A stretch of 8,976 bases of DNA. It comes from Candidatus Rokuibacteriota bacterium (GTDB lineage: Bacteria > Methylomirabilota > Methylomirabilia > Rokubacteriales > JACPHL01). Shown here in pieces: positions 1 to 8,081 of this stretch. A program made the position numbers and the translations under genes. Position 1 is the stretch's first letter. Each line of letters begins with the position of its first letter. The notes under the pieces are model-generated. The model saw only the letters and a list, made by a program, of their open reading frames with translations, was not told the DNA's origin and made no database searches. Location of the stretch: assembly GCA_016188625.1 (NCBI GenBank), contig JACPHL010000037.1:1-8976 (forward strand), read 5' to 3'.

Positions 1-706
1 GGAACTGGAAGTAGAGGTTGTCCCCCAGCCCGTAGGCGAAGAAGAGCTTGGCGGCCGCGAAGGTCCGGTCGCTCTCGGTGATCCCGAGGACCTGTCGGGC
101 GTAGGTGTCGGCGCAGTAGACCATATCGTGGTGGAGGTGGACGACCCCCTTCGGGAACCCGGTGGAGCCCGAGGAGTAGAGCCAGAGGGCCACGTCGTCC
201 CTTGTGGTGTCGGCCGCGTCGAGCGCGGGGGAGGCCCCGGCGGCCCAGCGGGCGAAGTCGTGCTGGGGGCCCTGGGCCTTGCCGACGACCACGACGTGCT
301 CGAGGCGCGGGGCCTGGCGGAGGACGGGGGCGACCTCGGCCAGGAGCGGCTCGGCGACGATGAGGACCTTGGCCCGGCTGTCCCGGAGCATGTAGAGGTA
401 GTCGGGGGCCTTGAGGAGGGTGTTGACGGGGACCGGGACGGCGCCGATCTTGATGGCCCCGAAGAAAGAACCCACGAACTCCGGGGTGTCGAGGAGCAGG
501 AGCATGACCCGCTGCTCGGGCTCCACGTCGAGGGCCAGGAGCCCGTTCCCGACCCGGTTGGTCAGCTCCTGGACCTGGCGGTAGGTGTAGGTCTTGTCCT
601 CGTAGAAGAGGGCGACCTTGTCCCCCCGCCCCTCGGCGACGTTCTTGTCCACGAACTCGACGGCGACGTTGAACTCGCGGGGGAGATCGACGACGGGTTG
701 AGCCAT
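1..706 (-). CDS. Benzoate-CoA ligase family protein, N-terminal part (runs off the left edge)
   Basis: Adenylate-forming enzyme that would activate benzoate or a hydroxybenzoate to its CoA thioester using ATP, in the cytoplasm. Only the first 235 residues are in the window; the family is usually a little over 500. The start ATG is at 704-706, preceded by a strong GGGAGGTGAG ribosome binding site at 711-720. The protein begins MAQPVVDLPREFNVAVEF, shows the AMP-binding P-loop YSSGSTGFPKG at residues 177-187, and ends in KLFFAYGLGDNLYF, a stretch characteristic of the benzoate-CoA ligase branch of the ANL superfamily. It lies 57 nt downstream of the BoxB-like gene on the same strand, so it is probably the next gene of the operon. 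Family assignment is strong. Whether it prefers benzoate, 4-hydroxybenzoate or another aryl acid cannot be read from this part, because most of the pocket is beyond the edge. Confidence 0.93.
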   Translation of the reverse strand, partial: MAQPVVDLPREFNVAVEFVDKNVAEGRGDKVALFYEDKTYTYRQVQELTNRVGNGLLALDVEPEQRVMLLLLDTPEFVGSFFGAIKIGAVPVPVNTLLKAPDYLYMLRDSRAKVLIVAEPLLAEVAPVLRQAPRLEHVVVVGKAQGPQHDFARWAAGASPALDAADTTRDDVALWLYSSGSTGFPKGVVHLHHDMVYCADTYARQVLGITESDRTFAAAKLFFAYGLGDNLYFQF

Positions 707-763: not shown

Positions 764-1879
764 TCACTCCTCGGGGCCGGCCTTCTTCGGGGCGATCCAG
801 TCCTTCTCCCGCATCAGGGCGTTGGCGGCCGCGATGTCCTCGGGCTGGGGGAGAACCTCCTTGAGATGCCGCGCGTACTCCTCCTCCGAGAGCGGACGGC
901 CGTCCACGCTGAAGCGCTGGCCCGCGTACTGGCCGATCTTCCGGTTGAAGCGCATGTCGGGGACGTAGAGCTTCGGCCGGTCGTCGGGGATCAGGCGGTT
1001 GGCCGAGTCCACGAGCCGCTGGATCTCCTCGAGGAAGAGCGTGCGGGCGTAGTGGTTGAGCTGCTCCCGGTCCGGCGGCGCGGGGTTGGTGTCCTCGTCG
1101 TAGCGCCCCTTGAGCCCCCAGACGTACGCCCATTGGGCCGAGGAGGAGTGATCGACCCCGAAGAGGTCGAAGGCGGTGGGGATCCACTTGTTGAAGTACT
1201 TCTGCAGCAGCGGGATCGGCACCCGGCCCGCCCTGGCGATCCGCTTGATCCCGTCGTTGCCGGTCCCGAGGTGAAATGCCTCCTCCTTCAGCATGGGCCC
1301 CATGGAGCGGGCCAGGGGCGCGAAGGCCGAGCGGGAGAGCATCCTGAGCTGGAACTTCCCGTCCCGGTCGATGAACTGGGTGAAGGTGAAGAAGTCGATC
1401 CAGTTGTCCACGTCCTCGTTGAAGGAGCCGAGCAGCCGGGTCCGCTTGAAGGACCGCCGCTCGAGGAGCTTCCGGGCCTCGCGCCGGCCCGAGTCGCCGA
1501 AGTAGCTGACCAGGAGGTGGGCCATCTGGTAGCCGTGGCGCATCTCCTCGCGGTTGACGCGGGCCAGGGCCTGGAAGTCGTAGTCGGAGGGCGCGGTGTC
1601 GTAGAGGTGGCGCTGCTGCTCCACCGAGGCGAACTCGGTGTCGCCCTGGACCGTGATCAGGTACTCGCAGGCGTCGCGGATCCGCTGGTCCGGGATCTGG
1701 AGCACGGCCTCCCACTTGGGCTCGCCCCTGAAGTCCCCGAACTCGATCTCGGGATGGCAGTCGCCGTAGAGGGGCTGGAAGGCGTACTCCCCCACGTGCG
1801 CGCCCACCATCCCGATCTCGCGCTGCCAGGCGTGGAAGAGGTCGGCCCAGTCTTCCCAGGTCTTGATCTTCACGGCCAT
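764..1879 (-). CDS. boxB: BoxB-like benzoyl-CoA 2,3-epoxidase, diiron oxygenase subunit (short form)
   Basis: 371-residue diiron protein resembling BoxB, the oxygenase component that epoxidises benzoyl-CoA with O2 in the aerobic CoA-dependent benzoate pathway. Family-typical stretches are GDTEFASVEQQRHL (79-92), VNREEMRHGYQM (108-119), FIDRDGKFQL (169-178) and MLKEEAFHLGTGNDG (196-210). Candidate iron ligands E82, E112, H115, D171, E200 and H203 reproduce, as I recall them, the spacing of the Azoarcus evansii BoxB ligands, with a two-residue slip before the aspartate. The protein is about 100 residues shorter than canonical BoxB (about 470), missing roughly 38 before the first ligand and about 60 after the last. 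The start ATG (1877-1879) has AGGAG 6 nt upstream, and that AGGAG overlaps the TAG stop of the crotonase gene; the gap is 9 nt. No BoxA reductase is visible. It clearly belongs with BoxB rather than PaaA, but its exact substrate is inferred. Confidence 0.85.
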   Translation of the reverse strand: MAVKIKTWEDWADLFHAWQREIGMVGAHVGEYAFQPLYGDCHPEIEFGDFRGEPKWEAVLQIPDQRIRDACEYLITVQGDTEFASVEQQRHLYDTAPSDYDFQALARVNREEMRHGYQMAHLLVSYFGDSGRREARKLLERRSFKRTRLLGSFNEDVDNWIDFFTFTQFIDRDGKFQLRMLSRSAFAPLARSMGPMLKEEAFHLGTGNDGIKRIARAGRVPIPLLQKYFNKWIPTAFDLFGVDHSSSAQWAYVWGLKGRYDEDTNPAPPDREQLNHYARTLFLEEIQRLVDSANRLIPDDRPKLYVPDMRFNRKIGQYAGQRFSVDGRPLSEEEYARHLKEVLPQPEDIAAANALMREKDWIAPKKAGPEE

Positions 1880-1888
1880 CGGCGGCTC

Positions 1889-2683
1889 CTAGCGGCCCTT
1901 GAAGCGGGGGACCCGCTTCGCCTGATAGGCGTCCAGCCCCTCCCGGGCGTCCTCGCTCCGGAAGAGCTGGATCTGCAGCTCCTGCTCCAGGGCGAGCCCG
2001 TCGTAGAGGTCCATCTCCACCCCGGACTGGATTGAGCGCTTGATGTGCCCCACCGCCTTGGCGGCCTTGTTGGGTGGGAGGAACTGCCGGGTGTACTCGA
2101 GGACCGCCTTCATGAAGTCGGCCTCGTCGAAGATGTGGTGGATGAGCCCCAGCTCCAGGGCCTCCTCGAAGGAGAAGGTCCGCCCGGTTGCGATCAGCTC
2201 CAGGGCCCTGGCCCGGCCGATCAGGCGGGCCAGCCGCTGGGTCCCCCCGGTGCCGGGGAGGACGCCCAGGGCGATCTCGGGCAGGCCGACCTTGCCGGCG
2301 TCCCGCCGGGCGAGCCGGATGTCGCAGGCCATGGCGATCTCGAGGCCGCCCCCCACGGTGTGGCCGTTCAGGGCCGCCACCACCAGCTTGGGGGTCTTCT
2401 CGAGCCGCAGGAGGGTCTCGTTGGCGTGGAGGCAGAAGCAGTACTTGAAGCCGGGCTCGGCCCCGGCGAGCATGTTGATGTTGGCCCCGGCCGAGAAGAA
2501 CTTCTCCCCCGCCCCGCGGAGCACCAGGGCGTGGACATCCTCGTCCATCCGGGCGCGGAGGATGGCGTCGTCGAGCTGGCGCATCATCGGGTAGCTGTAG
2601 GTGTTGGCGGGGGGGTCATCCAGCTCGATGACCGCGATCCCCTCCTCCACCCGGTAGTGGACCAGCTCCTTCTCGGTCGTCAT
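1889..2683 (-). CDS. Enoyl-CoA hydratase/isomerase (crotonase) family protein
   Basis: 264-residue single-domain crotonase, cytoplasmic, expected to act on an unsaturated CoA thioester. Visible features are the oxyanion-hole stretch FFSAGANINML (62-72), NGHTVGGGLEIAMACDIRLA (106-125) with candidate catalytic E115, and GLPEIALGVLPGTGGTQRL (133-151) with candidate catalytic E136. These two glutamates correspond to the hydratase pair of mitochondrial enoyl-CoA hydratase, so true hydratase chemistry is possible. It starts at ATG 2681-2683 with TAGGAGAGCGC just upstream, the TAG being the stop of the XRE-cupin gene. In the canonical box pathway the partner of BoxB is BoxC, a crotonase-superfamily lyase of about 550 residues; this protein is half that size and is not BoxC. 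It may hydrate a ring-opened or cyclic dienoyl-CoA intermediate of the operon's pathway, but the substrate is unknown. Confidence 0.9.
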   Translation of the reverse strand: MTTEKELVHYRVEEGIAVIELDDPPANTYSYPMMRQLDDAILRARMDEDVHALVLRGAGEKFFSAGANINMLAGAEPGFKYCFCLHANETLLRLEKTPKLVVAALNGHTVGGGLEIAMACDIRLARRDAGKVGLPEIALGVLPGTGGTQRLARLIGRARALELIATGRTFSFEEALELGLIHHIFDEADFMKAVLEYTRQFLPPNKAAKAVGHIKRSIQSGVEMDLYDGLALEQELQIQLFRSEDAREGLDAYQAKRVPRFKGR

Positions 2684-2692
2684 GGCGCTCTC

Positions 2693-3247
2693 CTATTCCT
2701 CTTTTCCGGTGATCACCCAGAGGGCCCTGGCCTCGCCGCCGCCCAGGTTCTCCCAGGTGTGGGGGGTGCCGCCGTCCAGGTAGGCCGTGTCCCCGGCCTC
2801 CAGGAGGTGCCGCTCGCCGTTATAGTGCAGGGCGACCTTCCCCTGGATCACGTACATGAGCTTCATCTGGCCCGGCTCGATCAGGACCCGCTCCGGCGGG
2901 ACCCCCATGGCGCGGGGGCCGAGGGTGGAGACCACCGCCCGGATCTTCCCCCGGAAGAGCCCGGCGGTCAGGACCTGCCAGCGCTCCGTGGAGCCGTCGA
3001 AGCTGACCACGGCCGCCTCCCGGCGCCGGCCGATGTGGAGCCGGCCGTTGGGGGCCTGCTCGAACAGGGCCGCGATGGGGATGCCGAGCGCCCCCGCCAG
3101 CCGCCCCAGGGTGTGGAGGGATGGGGTGAGCTTGTCGGACTCGATCTGGGAGATCAGGCTCGGGGTCAGGCCGCTCCTGGCGGCCAGCTCCTTCTGCCGG
3201 ATCCCCCGCTCCTTCCGGAGGTCCTTCAGGCGGGCGCCGAGAGACAT
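2693..3247 (-). CDS. XRE-family transcriptional regulator with C-terminal cupin domain
   Basis: 184-residue predicted DNA-binding regulator. Residues 5-60 form an XRE/lambda-repressor helix-turn-helix (RLKDLRKERGIRQKELAARS, then GLTPSLISQIESDKLTPS). A cupin lies at about 114-180, with the second cupin motif GDTAYLDGGTPHTWENLG (152-169) including H163 and N167. The first cupin motif lacks the usual HxH metal residues (MKLMYVIQGKVAL), so the cupin probably binds a small ligand without a canonical metal site. The start ATG (3245-3247) is 5 nt after the selenoprotein stop, with AGGGG 2 nt upstream of the start. Its place inside the operon suggests autoregulation of the aromatic acid genes. It is not the BzdR/BoxR type, which has a shikimate-kinase-like C-terminal domain. 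Operon targets and the effector (perhaps an aryl-CoA) are inference. Confidence 0.9.
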   Translation of the reverse strand: MSLGARLKDLRKERGIRQKELAARSGLTPSLISQIESDKLTPSLHTLGRLAGALGIPIAALFEQAPNGRLHIGRRREAAVVSFDGSTERWQVLTAGLFRGKIRAVVSTLGPRAMGVPPERVLIEPGQMKLMYVIQGKVALHYNGERHLLEAGDTAYLDGGTPHTWENLGGGEARALWVITGKEE

Positions 3248-3252
3248 CGCCC

Positions 3253-3840
3253 CTATGCCTCGCCGCGGGTGATGGCGGCCATGTCCACCTTCTGGAGGTG
3301 GGCATACTCGGGGTTCAGCTCCACCCCGAGGGCGTCCGCCACCCGCACGACGAAGTTGAAGAAGCCGATGATCCCCACCGCGTCCACGATCTCCTCGTCG
3401 GAGAGACCGTGAGCGCGGAGCTTCTCCAGGTCGGCCGCCTGGCAGGTCCAGGCCTCGCGGGAGACCTTGACCGCGAAGTCCAGGAGCGCCCGCAGCCGCT
3501 CGGAGATGGCGGCCGTGGTGTAGTCGGTCTTGATCGCCTCGGCGAAGGCCGCATCCCCGGTCTCGACACGCAGCCACGCTGCGTGGGCCTCCGTTCAGTA
3601 GTGGCAGCGGTTGACCACCGAGACCACGGTCGCGATCGCCTCCCGCTCCACCCGGCTCAACCCGGAGGGGCCGAACATGAGGGTCGAGAAGAGCCCGTTC
3701 CAGGCCCGCGTCAACTCCGGGCGGATCGTCGTGCTCTTGATGATGTTCGGGATCCACCCCCTGACCTTCTGGAGCGACTCGTAGAGGTTTTTGACGTACC
3801 CCTCGGCCTCCTCCGGCTCGATCGTCCGCACCCAGGTCAT
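3253..3840 (-). CDS. AhpD-like / carboxymuconolactone decarboxylase family peroxidase-related protein, candidate selenoprotein (TGA read as Sec82)
   Basis: Read through one in-frame TGA (3595-3597), this is a 195-residue protein of normal length for peroxidase-related AhpD/CMD proteins. Residues 1-81 begin MTWVRTIEPEEAEGYVKNLY and reach VVSVVNRCHY; after the TGA the frame continues TEAHAAWLRVETGDAAFAEA and later SDEEIVDAVGIIGFFNFVVR, then LGVELNPEYAHL, to TAG at 3253-3255. The family carries CxxCxxxH here; this gene has C79-H-Y-U82-T-E-A-H86. Together with E67 the spacing equals that recalled for AhpD (E118, C130, C133, H137), placing Sec at the peroxidatic cysteine. A SECIS-like hairpin starts 9 nt after the TGA. 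The start ATG overlaps the hcrB stop (ATGA) and has a GAGGAGG ribosome binding site. Likely role: thiol/selenol peroxidase or disulfide reductase protecting oxygen-sensitive partners (inference). Alternatives: a nonsense mutation or a sequencing error at this codon, splitting a broken gene into an 81-residue product. Confidence 0.82.
3567..3585 (-). promoter_or_regulatory. Putative bacterial SECIS element in the AhpD-like gene
   Basis: On the minus strand the sequence CACGCAGC-GTG-GCTGCGTG folds into a perfect 8-bp stem with a GUG triloop. The stem begins 9 nt after the in-frame TGA and the loop about 17 nt after it. Bacterial SECIS elements sit directly downstream of UGA inside the coding region, with a short apical loop that has a G in its first two positions at roughly 16-37 nt from the UGA; the E. 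coli fdhF element is at a similar distance. The hairpin lies within codons 86-92 (H-A-A-W-L-R-V), so it coexists with conserved protein sequence. GC-rich DNA makes hairpins common, but position, stem and loop all fit. No SelB binding can be shown from the sequence alone. Confidence 0.7.
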
Positions 3841-4883
3841 CGCGCCTCCTCATCGTTGGCGTGGTTCCGTCCCGCCATCGCCGTCGGCCAGTCGCCGACC
3901 GGCAGGCCGGCCAGCTCCCGGAGGGCTCTAGCCACGTACACCCGCGTCATCCGCTTCCGGTAGTAGTAGACCAGGTCGGTGTTGTCCAGCGGCTTCGACG
4001 GCCGGGCGGCGACCTCCGCCACGCGGTCGATCAGCTCGGGGGTGAGCCGCTCCCCGGCCAGGAGCCGCTCCGCCTCGACCGCCTCCCGCGGCTGGGAGGC
4101 GACCGCGCCGAGGACGATCCGCGCCTCCCGGCAGACCTCCCCCTCCCTCCGGAGCGCGACCGCCACGCCGAGGACCGGGAAGTCGAAGGAGCCGCGCCGG
4201 CGGAGCTTCCAGTAGGTCGCCCGGAGCCCGTCCACCGGCGGGAGCGCGATCTCGGCGACGATCTCCTCGGGCGCCTTGGCCAGGTACTGGATCCCGTCGT
4301 CCCGGTAGAGGGCCGGGAGTGGGATCACCCGCTCCCCGTCGGGCCCCACCAGCCGGACCCGCGCCCCGAGGCTCCAGAGGACCGGGGCGGTGTCCGAGGA
4401 GGAGACCGCCACGCAGCGCGGGCTCCCCGGCGCGACCAGGCAGATGTCGCCGTCCTTCTTCATGCAGAAGCCGATCGCCTTCCGCCAGGCGTAGGACTGG
4501 TTGTAGTAGTTGCAGCGGGTGTCGAGGCAGACGTTGCCGCCGATGGTCCCCATGTTCCGGAGCTGGGGGGTGGAGACGAGATCGGCCGCGCGCGCCAGGG
4601 CCGGGTAGTGGGTGAGGATCTCGGGATGGAGCGAGACCTGGGTCAGGGTCGCCAGCGCCCCGAGGGTCATCCCTTCCCGCGCGCTTCCCCGAATCCCGCC
4701 CAGCTCGCGGACCCCCCGGAGCCCGACCAGGACGCGGGGCTCGAACTGGCGGCGCTTCATGTTGGGGAAGAGGTCGGTCCCGCCGGCGACGACCATGGCG
4801 TCCGGGCCGTGCTCCTGGAGGAGCGACACCGCCCCCTCCACCGAGCGCGGGGTTCGGCAGACAGGGCGAGAACGACACGGCAT
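3837..4883 (-). CDS. hcrB: 4-hydroxybenzoyl-CoA reductase-type FAD subunit (beta) with [4Fe-4S] insert
   Basis: 348-residue FAD-binding subunit of a xanthine oxidase family enzyme, passing electrons between an iron-sulfur donor and the molybdenum centre. FAD-site stretches are VAGGTDLFPNMK (32-43) and TIGGNVCLDTRC (113-124). The insert carrying C124, C140, C148 and C157 (spacing 16, 8, 9) matches the spacing I recall for the four [4Fe-4S] ligands of Thauera aromatica HcrB (122, 138, 146, 155). This extra cluster marks 4-hydroxybenzoyl-CoA reductase and its close relatives, so the family call is firm; the substrate itself is inferred. The first 11 residues (MPCRSRPVCRT) do not look like a normal HcrB start, although PRSVEGAVSLL from residue 12 does. 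The start ATG follows the TAA of the antitoxin-like gene directly and in the same frame, with only a weak GTGGG before it. The stop overlaps the next gene's start (ATGA). Confidence 0.92.
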   Translation of the reverse strand: MPCRSRPVCRTPRSVEGAVSLLQEHGPDAMVVAGGTDLFPNMKRRQFEPRVLVGLRGVRELGGIRGSAREGMTLGALATLTQVSLHPEILTHYPALARAADLVSTPQLRNMGTIGGNVCLDTRCNYYNQSYAWRKAIGFCMKKDGDICLVAPGSPRCVAVSSSDTAPVLWSLGARVRLVGPDGERVIPLPALYRDDGIQYLAKAPEEIVAEIALPPVDGLRATYWKLRRRGSFDFPVLGVAVALRREGEVCREARIVLGAVASQPREAVEAERLLAGERLTPELIDRVAEVAARPSKPLDNTDLVYYYRKRMTRVYVARALRELAGLPVGDWPTAMAGRNHANDEEAR

Positions 4884-5081
4884 TTACCCACGGCGCGGCC
4901 GCTTTGCCCTCAGCCGCCGCTTGACGTCTTCCCATGCTACACGGGGTTCGCCCTTTCGACTTTCGGCAACGATGGCGTCGTAGATGTCCTCCCATATTTC
5001 GCGGTGTCGTCTCAGATCGAGAACGACCGCGGTCTTTTTCCCGTCAGGATCCGATAAGAACTGGACACCCTTGACCGTCAT
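4884..5081 (-). CDS. Small antitoxin-like protein (RelB/Phd-type), no toxin partner seen
   Basis: 65-residue protein with the pattern of many small type II antitoxins: an N-terminal strand segment VKGVQFLSDPDGKKTAVVLD, then a helical part with WEDIYDAIVAESRKGEPRVA and a basic tail ending RRLRAKRPRRG. In toxin-antitoxin pairs the toxin gene normally begins at or just after the antitoxin stop. Here the codon after TAA is the hcrB start, and no RelE/ParE-like toxin is visible. The stretch 4921-5100 is about 56% G+C by my count against roughly 70-75% in the flanking hcr genes, a sign of recent arrival. It starts at ATG 5079-5081, 61 nt after the hcrA stop, with only GGGGG as a possible ribosome binding site. 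It could be an orphan antitoxin, a solo DNA-binding protein, or a remnant of a decayed pair. The family call rests on pattern recognition only. Confidence 0.65.
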   Translation of the reverse strand: MTVKGVQFLSDPDGKKTAVVLDLRRHREIWEDIYDAIVAESRKGEPRVAWEDVKRRLRAKRPRRG

Positions 5082-5142
5082 ATCGCGCCCCCGTTGGAGA
5101 CGACCATCATGCTCGACCGCTCTTTTCCCGCCAGCTCATCGT

Positions 5143-7566
5143 CTACTCCCGCTTGAGGCTCAGATCCGCCGGCTGGCCGAACGCGGATTCGACGCGGATC
5201 GGCTCGGGGAAGCTGACCCGCGGGAACCGCTCCGGCCCCACCCGCGGCTCCTGCCCCTTGCCCTTCTGGTCGAGCCCCTTCAGGACCTTCTCCGGCGTGA
5301 TCGGGATCTCGTCCACCCGCACCCCGACGGCGTCGTAGACCGCGTTGGCGATCGCCGGGATCAGGGGGAGGAGCGGCACCTGCCCCGCCTCCTTGGCCCC
5401 GAACGGCCCCTCCGGGTCGTTGGTCTCGACCAGGATCGTCCGGATCTCCGGGGTCTCGAGGGTCGTGGGACTCTTGTACTCGAGCATCGAGGGGATCTTG
5501 TGGAGCCCCTTCCGGAAGATCTGCTCCTCCATCAGCGCCTCGCCGAGCCCCATGTAGACCGACCCCTCCACCTGCCCCTCGACCAGGAGCGGGTTGAGCG
5601 CCCGGCCGCCGTCGTGGGCGATCCAGATCTCGAGCGGCCTGACCTCGCCGGTCTCGGGGTCCACCGCCACCTCGGCGACGCAGGCGGTGTAGGAGTAGGC
5701 CGGCGTCGGCCCCACGCCCGCGCCCTTGAACTTCCCGCCCCGCCTCGGCGGTCGATAGGAGCCGGCGGCGGCCAGGGTCCCGTAGGCCGCCTCGGCGAGC
5801 TGGGCGGCCTCGGCGAAGCTCATCCCCCGCTCGGGGTCGTCCCGCAGGTAGACACGGCGGCCGCGCGCCACCAGGCCGGCCGGCGAGACCTCGAGCTTCT
5901 TCGCCGCGGCGTCGAGGAGGAGGCCGCGGAGCTTCTCGGCCGCCTCCTTGGCCGCGTTCCCCATCATCAGGGTCACGCGCGAGGAGTAGCTCCCCAGATC
6001 CACGGGGGTGAGGTCGGTGTCGGCCGTGACCACCCGGATGTCCTCGGGGAGGATCCCCAGGACCTCGGCGACCACGGAGGCGAGGACCGAGTCCGAGCCC
6101 TGGCCGATGTCGATGGAGCCGCAGAAGGCCGCGACCCCGCCGCCCCGGTCGATCTTCACGATGACCCCGGTGTGGGGCATCTCGTTCCAGTAGATCGCGA
6201 GCCCCGCCCCGGTGATGTAGGAGCTGGCCGCGAAGCCCACCCCGCGCCCCGGGGGGAGCCTCCGGTGCTTCTCCCGCCACCCCGAGGCCTCCACGACCCG
6301 GTCGATGCACTCCTCGAGCCCGCAGGTCGTGATGGTCAGGTGGTTGGCGGTCTTGGAGAACGGCTCCACCACCTGCCGCCGGCGCATCTCGGCCGGGTCG
6401 AGGCCGAGCGCCTCGGCGATCTTGTCCAGGTGGACCTCGATGGCGTAGCGCGGCTGGGGGGTCCCGTGGCCGCGCTTGGGGCCGCAGGGGGGCTTGTTGG
6501 TGAAGACCCGGCACCCCTCGAACTTGTAGCGGGGGACCTTGTAGGTGACGGTCTGAAGGGCGCCGGTGTAGAAGGTCGAGGCGACCCCGTAGGAGCCGTA
6601 GGCCCCGCCGTCGAGGATCGAGCGGAAGTGCATCGCCTGGATCGTCCCGTCGCGCGTGACGCCGGTCTTGACCCACATCAGGACCGGGTGGCGGCCGCGG
6701 TGGGCGTAGAAGACCTCCTCCCGGGTCAGGGTGCACTTGACCGGCCGGCCGGTGAGCTGGGCCAGGCGCGCCACGACCAGCTCGTGGCTGAAGGGGTCGG
6801 ACTTCCCCCCGAACCCCCCGCCTACGGGCGTGGCGATGACCCGGACGTGGCTCATGGGGAGCTCGAGGACCTTGGCCAGGGTGCGGTGGACATAGTGGGG
6901 GGTCTGGGTCGAGGACCAGAGGGTGAGCTTCCCGTCGGGGTCCCAGCGGGCGACGGCGGCGTGCTGCTCCATGGGGAGGTGGTTGCTCCCCTCGAAGTAG
7001 AAGAGGTCCTCCCGGATCAGGTCCGCCTCCCGGAACCCCTCCTCGACGTCCCCGAACTCCAGGGAGACGAGCTTGTGGATGTTCGGGCCGTCGCCGTACT
7101 CCTGGATCCGGACCGTCCCCTCGGCCAGGGCCTCCTCGATGGACATGATCGGCGGGAGCGGTTCGTACTCCACCTCGATCAGCTCGGTCGCGCGCTCGGC
7201 CGTCTCCTCGTCCACCGCGGCCACGGCCGCCACCGCGTCGCCGACGTAGCGGACCTTCTCGGTCGAGAGGGCCTCCTCGTCCTGGCTGACCGGGAGGATC
7301 CCGAACTTCACCGGCGGGAAGTCGGCGCCGGTGATGACGGCGAGGACGCCGGGGAGCGCCCGGGCGCGGGAGGTGTCGATCGCCTTGATGCGGGCGTGGG
7401 GGTGCCGGGCCCGGAGGAGCCTGGCGTGGGCCATCCGGGGGAGGATGAGGTCGTCGGCGTACTTCGTCTCGCCGATCACCTTCCCCCAGGCGTCCACCTT
7501 GGGGAGGCGCTTGCCGATGACGGCCAGCTCCTCGGCCCGGCGCGGAGGGGTCTCGACCGGTCCCAT
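5143..7566 (-). CDS. hcrA: 4-hydroxybenzoyl-CoA reductase-type molybdenum subunit (alpha)
   Basis: 807-residue catalytic subunit of a xanthine oxidase family molybdenum enzyme. In its family it carries the molybdopterin cytosine dinucleotide cofactor and reductively removes the para-hydroxyl of 4-hydroxybenzoyl-CoA, yielding benzoyl-CoA. Visible are the N-terminal domain (IGKRLPKVDAWGKVIGETKY, 17-36), PVGGGFGGKSD (247-257), KRGHGTPQPRYA (364-375), IDIGQGSD (485-492) and GPFGAKEAGQVPLLP (720-734). The last motif usually ends with a catalytic glutamate (GxKExGE); here that position is Q729. The start is ATG 7564-7566 with GGGGAGGTGA upstream; 2 nt separate it from the hcrC stop. The frame stays open far upstream to 8925, but that extension crosses hcrC and is not coding. 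The protein is about 40 residues longer than Thauera HcrA (769), through a C-terminal tail rich in Pro and Arg. Other aryl-CoA or hydroxylase substrates remain possible. Confidence 0.93.
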   Translation of the reverse strand: MGPVETPPRRAEELAVIGKRLPKVDAWGKVIGETKYADDLILPRMAHARLLRARHPHARIKAIDTSRARALPGVLAVITGADFPPVKFGILPVSQDEEALSTEKVRYVGDAVAAVAAVDEETAERATELIEVEYEPLPPIMSIEEALAEGTVRIQEYGDGPNIHKLVSLEFGDVEEGFREADLIREDLFYFEGSNHLPMEQHAAVARWDPDGKLTLWSSTQTPHYVHRTLAKVLELPMSHVRVIATPVGGGFGGKSDPFSHELVVARLAQLTGRPVKCTLTREEVFYAHRGRHPVLMWVKTGVTRDGTIQAMHFRSILDGGAYGSYGVASTFYTGALQTVTYKVPRYKFEGCRVFTNKPPCGPKRGHGTPQPRYAIEVHLDKIAEALGLDPAEMRRRQVVEPFSKTANHLTITTCGLEECIDRVVEASGWREKHRRLPPGRGVGFAASSYITGAGLAIYWNEMPHTGVIVKIDRGGGVAAFCGSIDIGQGSDSVLASVVAEVLGILPEDIRVVTADTDLTPVDLGSYSSRVTLMMGNAAKEAAEKLRGLLLDAAAKKLEVSPAGLVARGRRVYLRDDPERGMSFAEAAQLAEAAYGTLAAAGSYRPPRRGGKFKGAGVGPTPAYSYTACVAEVAVDPETGEVRPLEIWIAHDGGRALNPLLVEGQVEGSVYMGLGEALMEEQIFRKGLHKIPSMLEYKSPTTLETPEIRTILVETNDPEGPFGAKEAGQVPLLPLIPAIANAVYDAVGVRVDEIPITPEKVLKGLDQKGKGQEPRVGPERFPRVSFPEPIRVESAFGQPADLSLKRE

Positions 7567-7568
7567 CG

Positions 7569-8048
7569 TCACCTCCCCTGTCGCGCCGCCGCCAGCTCCA
7601 CGGCGTCCAGGATCTTCGTGTAGCCGGTGCAGCGGCAGAGGTTGCCGGCCAGGGCCACGCGGATCGCCTCTCGGCTGGGCCGGGGGTTGTGCTCGAGGAG
7701 GGCCTTGGCGGCCAGGAGGATCCCGGGGGTGCAGTAGCCGCACTGGGCCGCCCCCAGCTCGGCGAAGCTCTGCTGGAGCGGGTGGAGGCGCCCGGCCTGG
7801 GCCATCCCCTCCACCGTGAGGATCTCCCGCCCCTGGCACTCCACGGGGAGGAGGAGGCAGGAGAGGACCGGCTCCCCGTCCAGGAGCACGGTGCAGGTCC
7901 CGCACTCGCCCAGCTCGCAGCCGTGCTTGGTCCCAGTCAGGCCCAGCTCCTCCCGGAGGACCTCCAGGAGGGTCTTGTGGACCGGGGCGAGGACCTGGAC
8001 GTCGTCGCCGTTGACCCGGGGGGTGAGCAGCTCCCGCATCCCCGTCAT
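7569..8048 (-). CDS. hcrC: 4-hydroxybenzoyl-CoA reductase-type [2Fe-2S] subunit (gamma)
   Basis: Small iron-sulfur subunit of the molybdenum enzyme, with two [2Fe-2S] clusters. Using the ATG at 8046-8048 it has 159 residues; Thauera HcrC has 161. The plant-ferredoxin-type cluster is in GCELGECGTCTVLLDG with one more cysteine in LSCLLLP. The C-terminal cluster is bound by AAQCGYCTPGI and GNLCRCTGYTKI (C-x2-C ... C-x-C). The start is uncertain: a TTG at 8058-8060 has GGGGA at a fair distance, the ATG at 8046-8048 has no clear ribosome binding site, and a third choice is the ATG at 8037-8039. All three leave the clusters intact. It is the first gene after the promoter-like sequence at 8086-8115, and its TGA sits inside the ribosome binding site of hcrA (AGGTGACGATG), implying tight coupling. 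Confidence 0.94.
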   Translation of the reverse strand: MTGMRELLTPRVNGDDVQVLAPVHKTLLEVLREELGLTGTKHGCELGECGTCTVLLDGEPVLSCLLLPVECQGREILTVEGMAQAGRLHPLQQSFAELGAAQCGYCTPGILLAAKALLEHNPRPSREAIRVALAGNLCRCTGYTKILDAVELAAARQGR

Positions 8049-8081
8049 CCCATGGAACAATTAATCCCCGATGAAGAGTAT

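Follow-up and report, generated by a model that had tools for sequence, protein, structure and literature searches.

A compact BoxB-like diiron protein and a single-domain crotonase appear to be exchanged in place for BoxB and BoxC in Rokubacteria

Introduction

The closest described counterparts of the two proteins considered here are BoxB and BoxC, the epoxidase and ring-opening pair of the box pathway for oxygen-dependent benzoyl-CoA degradation. In Azoarcus BoxB the iron ligands are E120, E150, H153, D211, E240 and H243 (PMC5489048), while in BoxC the active centre lies only in the N-terminal crotonase domain, with two glutamates placed as in PaaF (PMC4498308). Surveys of the box pathway search for full-length boxA, boxB and boxC (e.g. 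PMC10803450).

The stretch of DNA analysed here, 8,976 nucleotides and hereafter the window, is an entire contig (C217) of a Rokubacteria draft genome (G000; 2.6 Mb, 84% complete). The first-pass annotation had drawn attention to a short, divergent BoxB with no BoxA or BoxC beside it, and had suggested that it might belong to a distinct subfamily with a different reductase, downstream lyase or aryl-CoA substrate. Here we compare the locus with canonical box clusters of the same order and with related loci in other phyla.

Results

The short BoxB gene is an uninterrupted minus-strand reading frame with strong coding bias (GC3 0.98) and a Shine-Dalgarno-like AGGAG immediately upstream, and it lies among the genes listed in Table 1. 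As first noticed, neither boxA nor boxC is present in the window, which spans its contig completely, and the suggested search of the rest of the draft genome returned neither gene above cut-off. An artefact of the contig boundary is ruled out by relatives that carry the cluster inside longer contigs without adjoining boxA or boxC, and one relative of 94% completeness (G045) likewise has neither gene above cut-off genome-wide.

Table 1. Genes of the window and their coordinates
Feature	Position	Strand	Remarks
Benzoate-CoA ligase family protein, truncated by contig end, 235 aa present	2..706	-	TIGR02262
Short BoxB-like diiron protein, 371 aa	764..1879	-	Ligands E82, E112, H115, D171, E200, H203
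Single-domain crotonase, 264 aa, in BoxC's place	1889..2683	-	Cys84, Glu115, Glu136 = BoxC Cys111, Glu146, Glu168
XRE-family HTH and cupin regulator	2693..3247	-	Homologue of the regulator in the order's canonical box clusters
CMD/AhpD-like (peroxidase-related) protein, 195 aa if in-frame TGA is selenocysteine	3253..3840	-	
FAD subunit, 4-hydroxybenzoyl-CoA-reductase-type (HcrB-like)	3837..4883	-	C-x15-C-x7-C-x8-C loop
Molybdenum subunit (HcrA-like)	5143..7560, start approximate	-	
2Fe-2S subunit (HcrC-like), 163 aa	7569..8060	-	

On the NCBI BoxB model TIGR03225, which has a curated cut-off of 499.1 bits, the short protein scores 242 bits and other short members score 225-233, against 847-893 for canonical full-length BoxBs, one from the same order included; the scores are thus bimodal. 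The protein lies outside canonical BoxB as NCBI defines it, yet very likely functions in the manner of BoxB. An AF2 model (pLDDT 93) aligns with BoxB (3q1g/3pm5) over 364 of 371 residues, with Z 43, rmsd 2.3 and 39% identity, which argues for a complete, trimmed BoxB and against a fragment; the protein is predicted to have the complete BoxB fold together with its iron site. The first-pass annotation had described it as about 100 residues shorter at both ends and had suggested structure prediction as a way to find the missing segments. The size of the deficit stands, at about 95 residues in all, but its location does not: the predicted fold is complete overall and the losses fall mostly in loops, comprising (in canonical numbering) an N-terminal loop at about 46-69, internal inserts at about 256-274 and 326-348, two short segments towards the C-terminus and a handful of residues at the N-terminus.

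The Pfam profile matched by the protein is PF05138 (PaaA_PaaC), and this match, along with a common ferritin-like fold, might be taken to indicate a PaaA-type subunit of phenylacetyl-CoA epoxidase. Such an identity is extremely improbable, as the protein scores 34 bits on the PaaA model TIGR02156 (cut-off 280) against 242 on the BoxB model, the structural families that follow BoxB are a Sulfolobus PF05138 protein at Z 25 and only then PaaA at Z 22, and no PaaB, PaaC or PaaE partners were recognised adjoining the gene; the PaaA assignment was discarded on the scores. The genome of the window encodes further PF05138-like diiron proteins (L047 5331-6059 and 4511-5293, L046 and L048; contigs C130, C253 and C155), and on C130 such a protein adjoins a crotonase whose sister is the partner crotonase of short BoxB. 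It is possible that these are additional acyl-CoA epoxidase systems.

The residues that define the active site were compared in an alignment of 83 short and 29 canonical BoxB proteins. The six candidate iron ligands recognised at the outset map to the Azoarcus set and are invariant (83/83 short, 29/29 canonical), and the change from GDTEP to GDTEF, also spotted at first sight, proves to be diagnostic, with phenylalanine in all 83 short and proline in all 29 canonical sequences (P121F in canonical numbering). Also invariant across both sets are four residues that touch the benzoyl group in BoxB or set its orientation, Gln116, Thr119, Ser123 and Phe193. The fixed or near-fixed differences between short and canonical forms include P121F, G151M, L154G, F206Y and T210I/V, and H242F/Y is a further second-shell change near the substrate in the short family.

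Phylogeny, proposed earlier as a check, places the short protein outside canonical BoxB, with canonical sequences on one side and short sequences on the other side of a branch with support 100/100 and a length of 4.28 changes per column; the great distance of the outgroup leaves the position of the root among the short forms uncertain. A separate group in the tree, bimodal HMM scores and a nearly one-to-one co-occurrence with a single-domain crotonase that replaces BoxC together uphold the idea of a distinct subfamily. Of the 58 relatives in the order, 4 have orthologues with 60-78% identity and most of the others have canonical BoxB, and a genome scan found 80 short BoxB loci (54-78% identity), some of them from these same relatives, in Acidobacteriota, Gemmatimonadota, Binatota, Myxococcota or 'Deltaproteobacteria', Tectomicrobia and Rokubacteria. 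In one Rokubacteria bin (L041/L084) the two proteins branch within Gemmatimonadota sequences, which points to transfer or a mis-binned contig. The family appears to be a widespread and so far unnamed variant of the box-pathway epoxidase and ring-opening pair; we found no account of it in the literature searched, which is weak evidence given that most subscription papers were outside our reach.

The partner crotonase follows the short BoxB closely. Full BoxC is found above cut-off in 46 of the 59 genomes of the order and in none of the four that have only short BoxB, while the partner crotonase (at least 61% identity) is present in 5/5 short-BoxB genomes and 0/54 others (Fisher p 2e-7), the best match in those 54 reaching 46%. 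Across phyla, 45 of 48 short-BoxB genomes carry the partner crotonase and 1 of 47 carries full BoxC; transfer or a mixed bin may account for this single genome, since in the trees its short BoxB and its crotonase fall within Gemmatimonadota. The different downstream lyase surmised in the first pass therefore takes the form of a near one-to-one pairing of short BoxB with a single-domain crotonase rather than BoxC.

On the BoxC model TIGR03222 the partner crotonase scores 84 bits (cut-off 712.3) and covers only model positions 43-226, and with 264 residues and one crotonase domain it lacks the two-domain architecture of BoxC. Its Cys84, Glu115 and Glu136 align with residues 111, 146 and 168 of a BoxC. 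In the work of Bains et al. (2009), the BoxC glutamates were reportedly proposed for ring cleavage and the cysteine for deformylation; we take Cys111, Glu146 and Glu168 to be the residues meant. The FCxxxNET motif is present in 46/55 partner crotonases and 9/9 BoxC proteins, and in 0/70 PaaF-like, PaaG-like and dienoyl-hydratase-like crotonases of the same clusters, and the full C-E-E set is present in 48/55 partner crotonases, the cysteine being missing in 7/55.

In overall sequence, the partner crotonase is closer to ordinary enoyl-CoA hydratases (2ppy, 5zai) than to BoxC, it retains both hydratase-type glutamates, and the crotonase tree, in which BoxC has a long branch, does not join the two. 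In a structural comparison that does not discriminate, BoxC is not among the 50 matches listed (Z 27-31). Sequence and fold nearest to ordinary hydratases, with both glutamates in place, would suit an enzyme that serves only as the lower-pathway enoyl-CoA hydratase (the PaaF role), leaving ring opening to an unlinked enzyme or to a spontaneous reaction. We consider this unlikely: clusters in Gemmatimonadota hold the partner crotonase besides PaaF-like and PaaG-like crotonases, its distribution within the order is confined to short-BoxB genomes, its FCxxxNET motif is of the BoxC type and it occupies the BoxC position.

That position emerges from a comparison of operons. Canonical clusters of the order read hcrC-hcrA-hcrB-regulator-boxC-boxB-RidA-ligase-second ligase, and the short clusters have the same order, with a 264-aa crotonase replacing boxC and the short gene replacing boxB. 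The early remark that a crotonase sits in BoxC's place was accurate, as it takes the exact boxC position in an otherwise homologous operon of related genomes. When one short cluster is compared with one canonical cluster, identity is 62-80% for the flanking genes but only 36% for BoxB and, over 168 residues, 39% for the crotonase against BoxC, so that the pair looks exchanged in place. In Rokubacteria, boxC-boxB appears to have been swapped for the compact pair, a direction that we infer.

The cluster of the window differs from other clusters of the order in having no RidA gene between boxB and the ligase and in having an extra CMD gene, which was not seen in other short clusters. The CMD/AhpD-like gene (3253-3840, minus strand) has an in-frame TGA at 3597-3595 within a CHYU-T motif that resembles the one of the NCBI 'CFYUT (seleno)protein' family. 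This TGA likely encodes selenocysteine, given the motif, a SelB encoded above cut-off in the same genome and a hairpin after the TGA, the hairpin being no more stable than shuffles.

4-Hydroxybenzoyl-CoA-reductase-type enzymes are usually met in anaerobic pathways. In the window (3837-8060, minus strand) their genes share an operon with oxygen-dependent box-type genes, as they do in the order's canonical-BoxB clusters. All three Hcr-like subunits score below their equivalog cut-offs (871/994.6, 290/404.6 and 184/257.8 bits), and the cysteine loop of the FAD subunit is found in the window and in seven related clusters. The ligase fragment scores 250 bits on TIGR02262 and its intact homologues in short clusters score 698 and 657, above cut-off; benzoate-CoA ligase genes lie inside or close to the clusters of Rokubacteria, Tectomicrobia and Binatota. 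In Gemmatimonadota the clusters hold a TetR regulator, the crotonase, an aldehyde dehydrogenase, a PcaF-like thiolase (533 bits, cut-off 597), a PaaG-like crotonase, the short BoxB and a PaaH-like dehydrogenase, along with a PaaF-like hydratase in some and an amidohydrolase-like protein named from sequence only. The aldehyde dehydrogenase and the PaaG-, PaaF-, PaaH- and PcaF-like proteins amount to the complement of the lower box pathway.

The first-pass suggestion of a different aryl-CoA substrate is not favoured by these data. It would have the short BoxB act on, for example, hydroxy- or aminobenzoyl-CoA, or at another position, and the crotonase handle that product, and we regard it as quite unlikely. 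The family-wide second-shell changes (P121F to H242F/Y, above), the adjoining hydroxybenzoyl-CoA-reductase-type genes and the seven partner crotonases without the cysteine would all be in keeping with it. At the same time, the four benzoyl-binding residues and all ligands are invariant, and the pair replaces BoxC-BoxB in an operon that is homologous to those of canonical clusters and whose ligase and reductase genes are 62-80% identical to theirs. A benzoate-CoA ligase and a 4-hydroxybenzoyl-CoA-reductase-type enzyme in one operon thus argue against another aryl-CoA, despite the second-shell differences.

BoxA was found above cut-off in 0 of the 59 genomes of the order, canonical-BoxB relatives included, and in 0 of 47 short-BoxB genomes across phyla. 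Several relatives (L042-L045 among others) have canonical BoxB and BoxC yet no BoxA above cut-off. Because all 46 BoxC-bearing relatives of the order are also without BoxA, lacking this protein does not set the short form apart, and BoxA loss was rejected as a mark of it. Short BoxB has a 107-aa 2Fe-2S ferredoxin and a NuoF-like flavoprotein as neighbours in Myxococcota-like genomes, in some Acidobacteria and in one Tectomicrobium, in whose operon (L186 4420-9589) a dienoyl-CoA-hydratase-like gene is followed by those for the crotonase, short BoxB, the 2Fe-2S ferredoxin and the NuoF-like flavoprotein, in that order. These two proteins are the best candidate for the electron donor in other genomes. 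A search of the genome of the window for that ferredoxin gave no candidate partner, and no reductase for short BoxB was identified there. The L186 genome also has a second short BoxB (L082), and in Binatia and Myxococcota-like genomes (L123, L126, L128 and L137 ~9130-10460) a GlpC-like 4Fe-4S protein is encoded next to short BoxB in convergent orientation.

Discussion

Overall, we believe the window probably encodes a compact benzoyl-CoA epoxidase and a single-domain equivalent of BoxC, exchanged in place for BoxB-BoxC, an assignment of activity drawn from sequence comparison. In the pathway that we envisage, the CoA ligase would activate 4-hydroxybenzoate or benzoate, and the neighbouring molybdenum enzyme would dehydroxylate 4-hydroxybenzoyl-CoA to benzoyl-CoA. 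The short BoxB, with O2 and two electrons, would then convert benzoyl-CoA to 2,3-epoxybenzoyl-CoA, and the crotonase would open the ring with release of formate; the resulting 3,4-dehydroadipyl-CoA semialdehyde would be processed further by an aldehyde dehydrogenase and enzymes of beta-oxidation.

Our data point to a second version of the known benzoate degradation pathway in several little-studied soil phyla. Because surveys based on full-length genes would miss the short form, the extent of oxygen-dependent benzoyl-CoA degradation in several uncultured soil phyla is probably underestimated. From the short family one can also see what BoxB and BoxC may be able to do without. As the BoxB loops and the second half of BoxC are missing together, natural variation offers a way to test the BoxB-BoxC interface and the requirement for BoxA. 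A bolder and more doubtful possibility is that of a second, separately evolved and perhaps older box pathway, in which a loop-trimmed epoxidase, a single-domain ring-opening crotonase and, replacing BoxA, an NADH-dehydrogenase-like flavoprotein with a ferredoxin would form the main aerobic benzoyl-CoA route in uncultured soil Acidobacteriota, Gemmatimonadota and Binatota.

Comparison with known systems

Among described systems, PaaA of phenylacetyl-CoA epoxidase (TIGR02156; 3PW1) has the superfamily and the ferritin-like diiron fold in common with short BoxB, which differs in its weak sequence match, lower structural score and want of Paa partner subunits. With 4-hydroxybenzoyl-CoA reductase (HcrABC) the window shares three neighbouring subunits and the C-x15-C-x7-C-x8-C loop of the FAD subunit, although its subunits fall below the equivalog cut-offs and stand beside oxygen-dependent box-type genes. 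The best solved-structure sequence match of the partner crotonase is 2PPY, the 'enoyl-CoA hydratase' GK1992 of Geobacillus kaustophilus, which carries FKTQFCLFCNET and whose record gives no function. BoxC (TIGR03222; 2W3P) has both active-site glutamates, the FCxxxNET cysteine motif and the place in the operon in common with the partner crotonase, which at 264 residues is a single domain without the C-terminal half of BoxC and is not resolved as its sister in the tree.

BoxB itself (TIGR03225; Azoarcus/Aromatoleum evansii 3PM5) differs from the short form, which is below the model cut-off, forms a separate group without BoxC or BoxA, has GDTEF and the second-shell substitutions, lacks about 95 residues in loops and ends and is 36-39% identical. 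What the two have in common is the fold, the six ligands, Q116, T119, S123 and F193, and the position in the operon.
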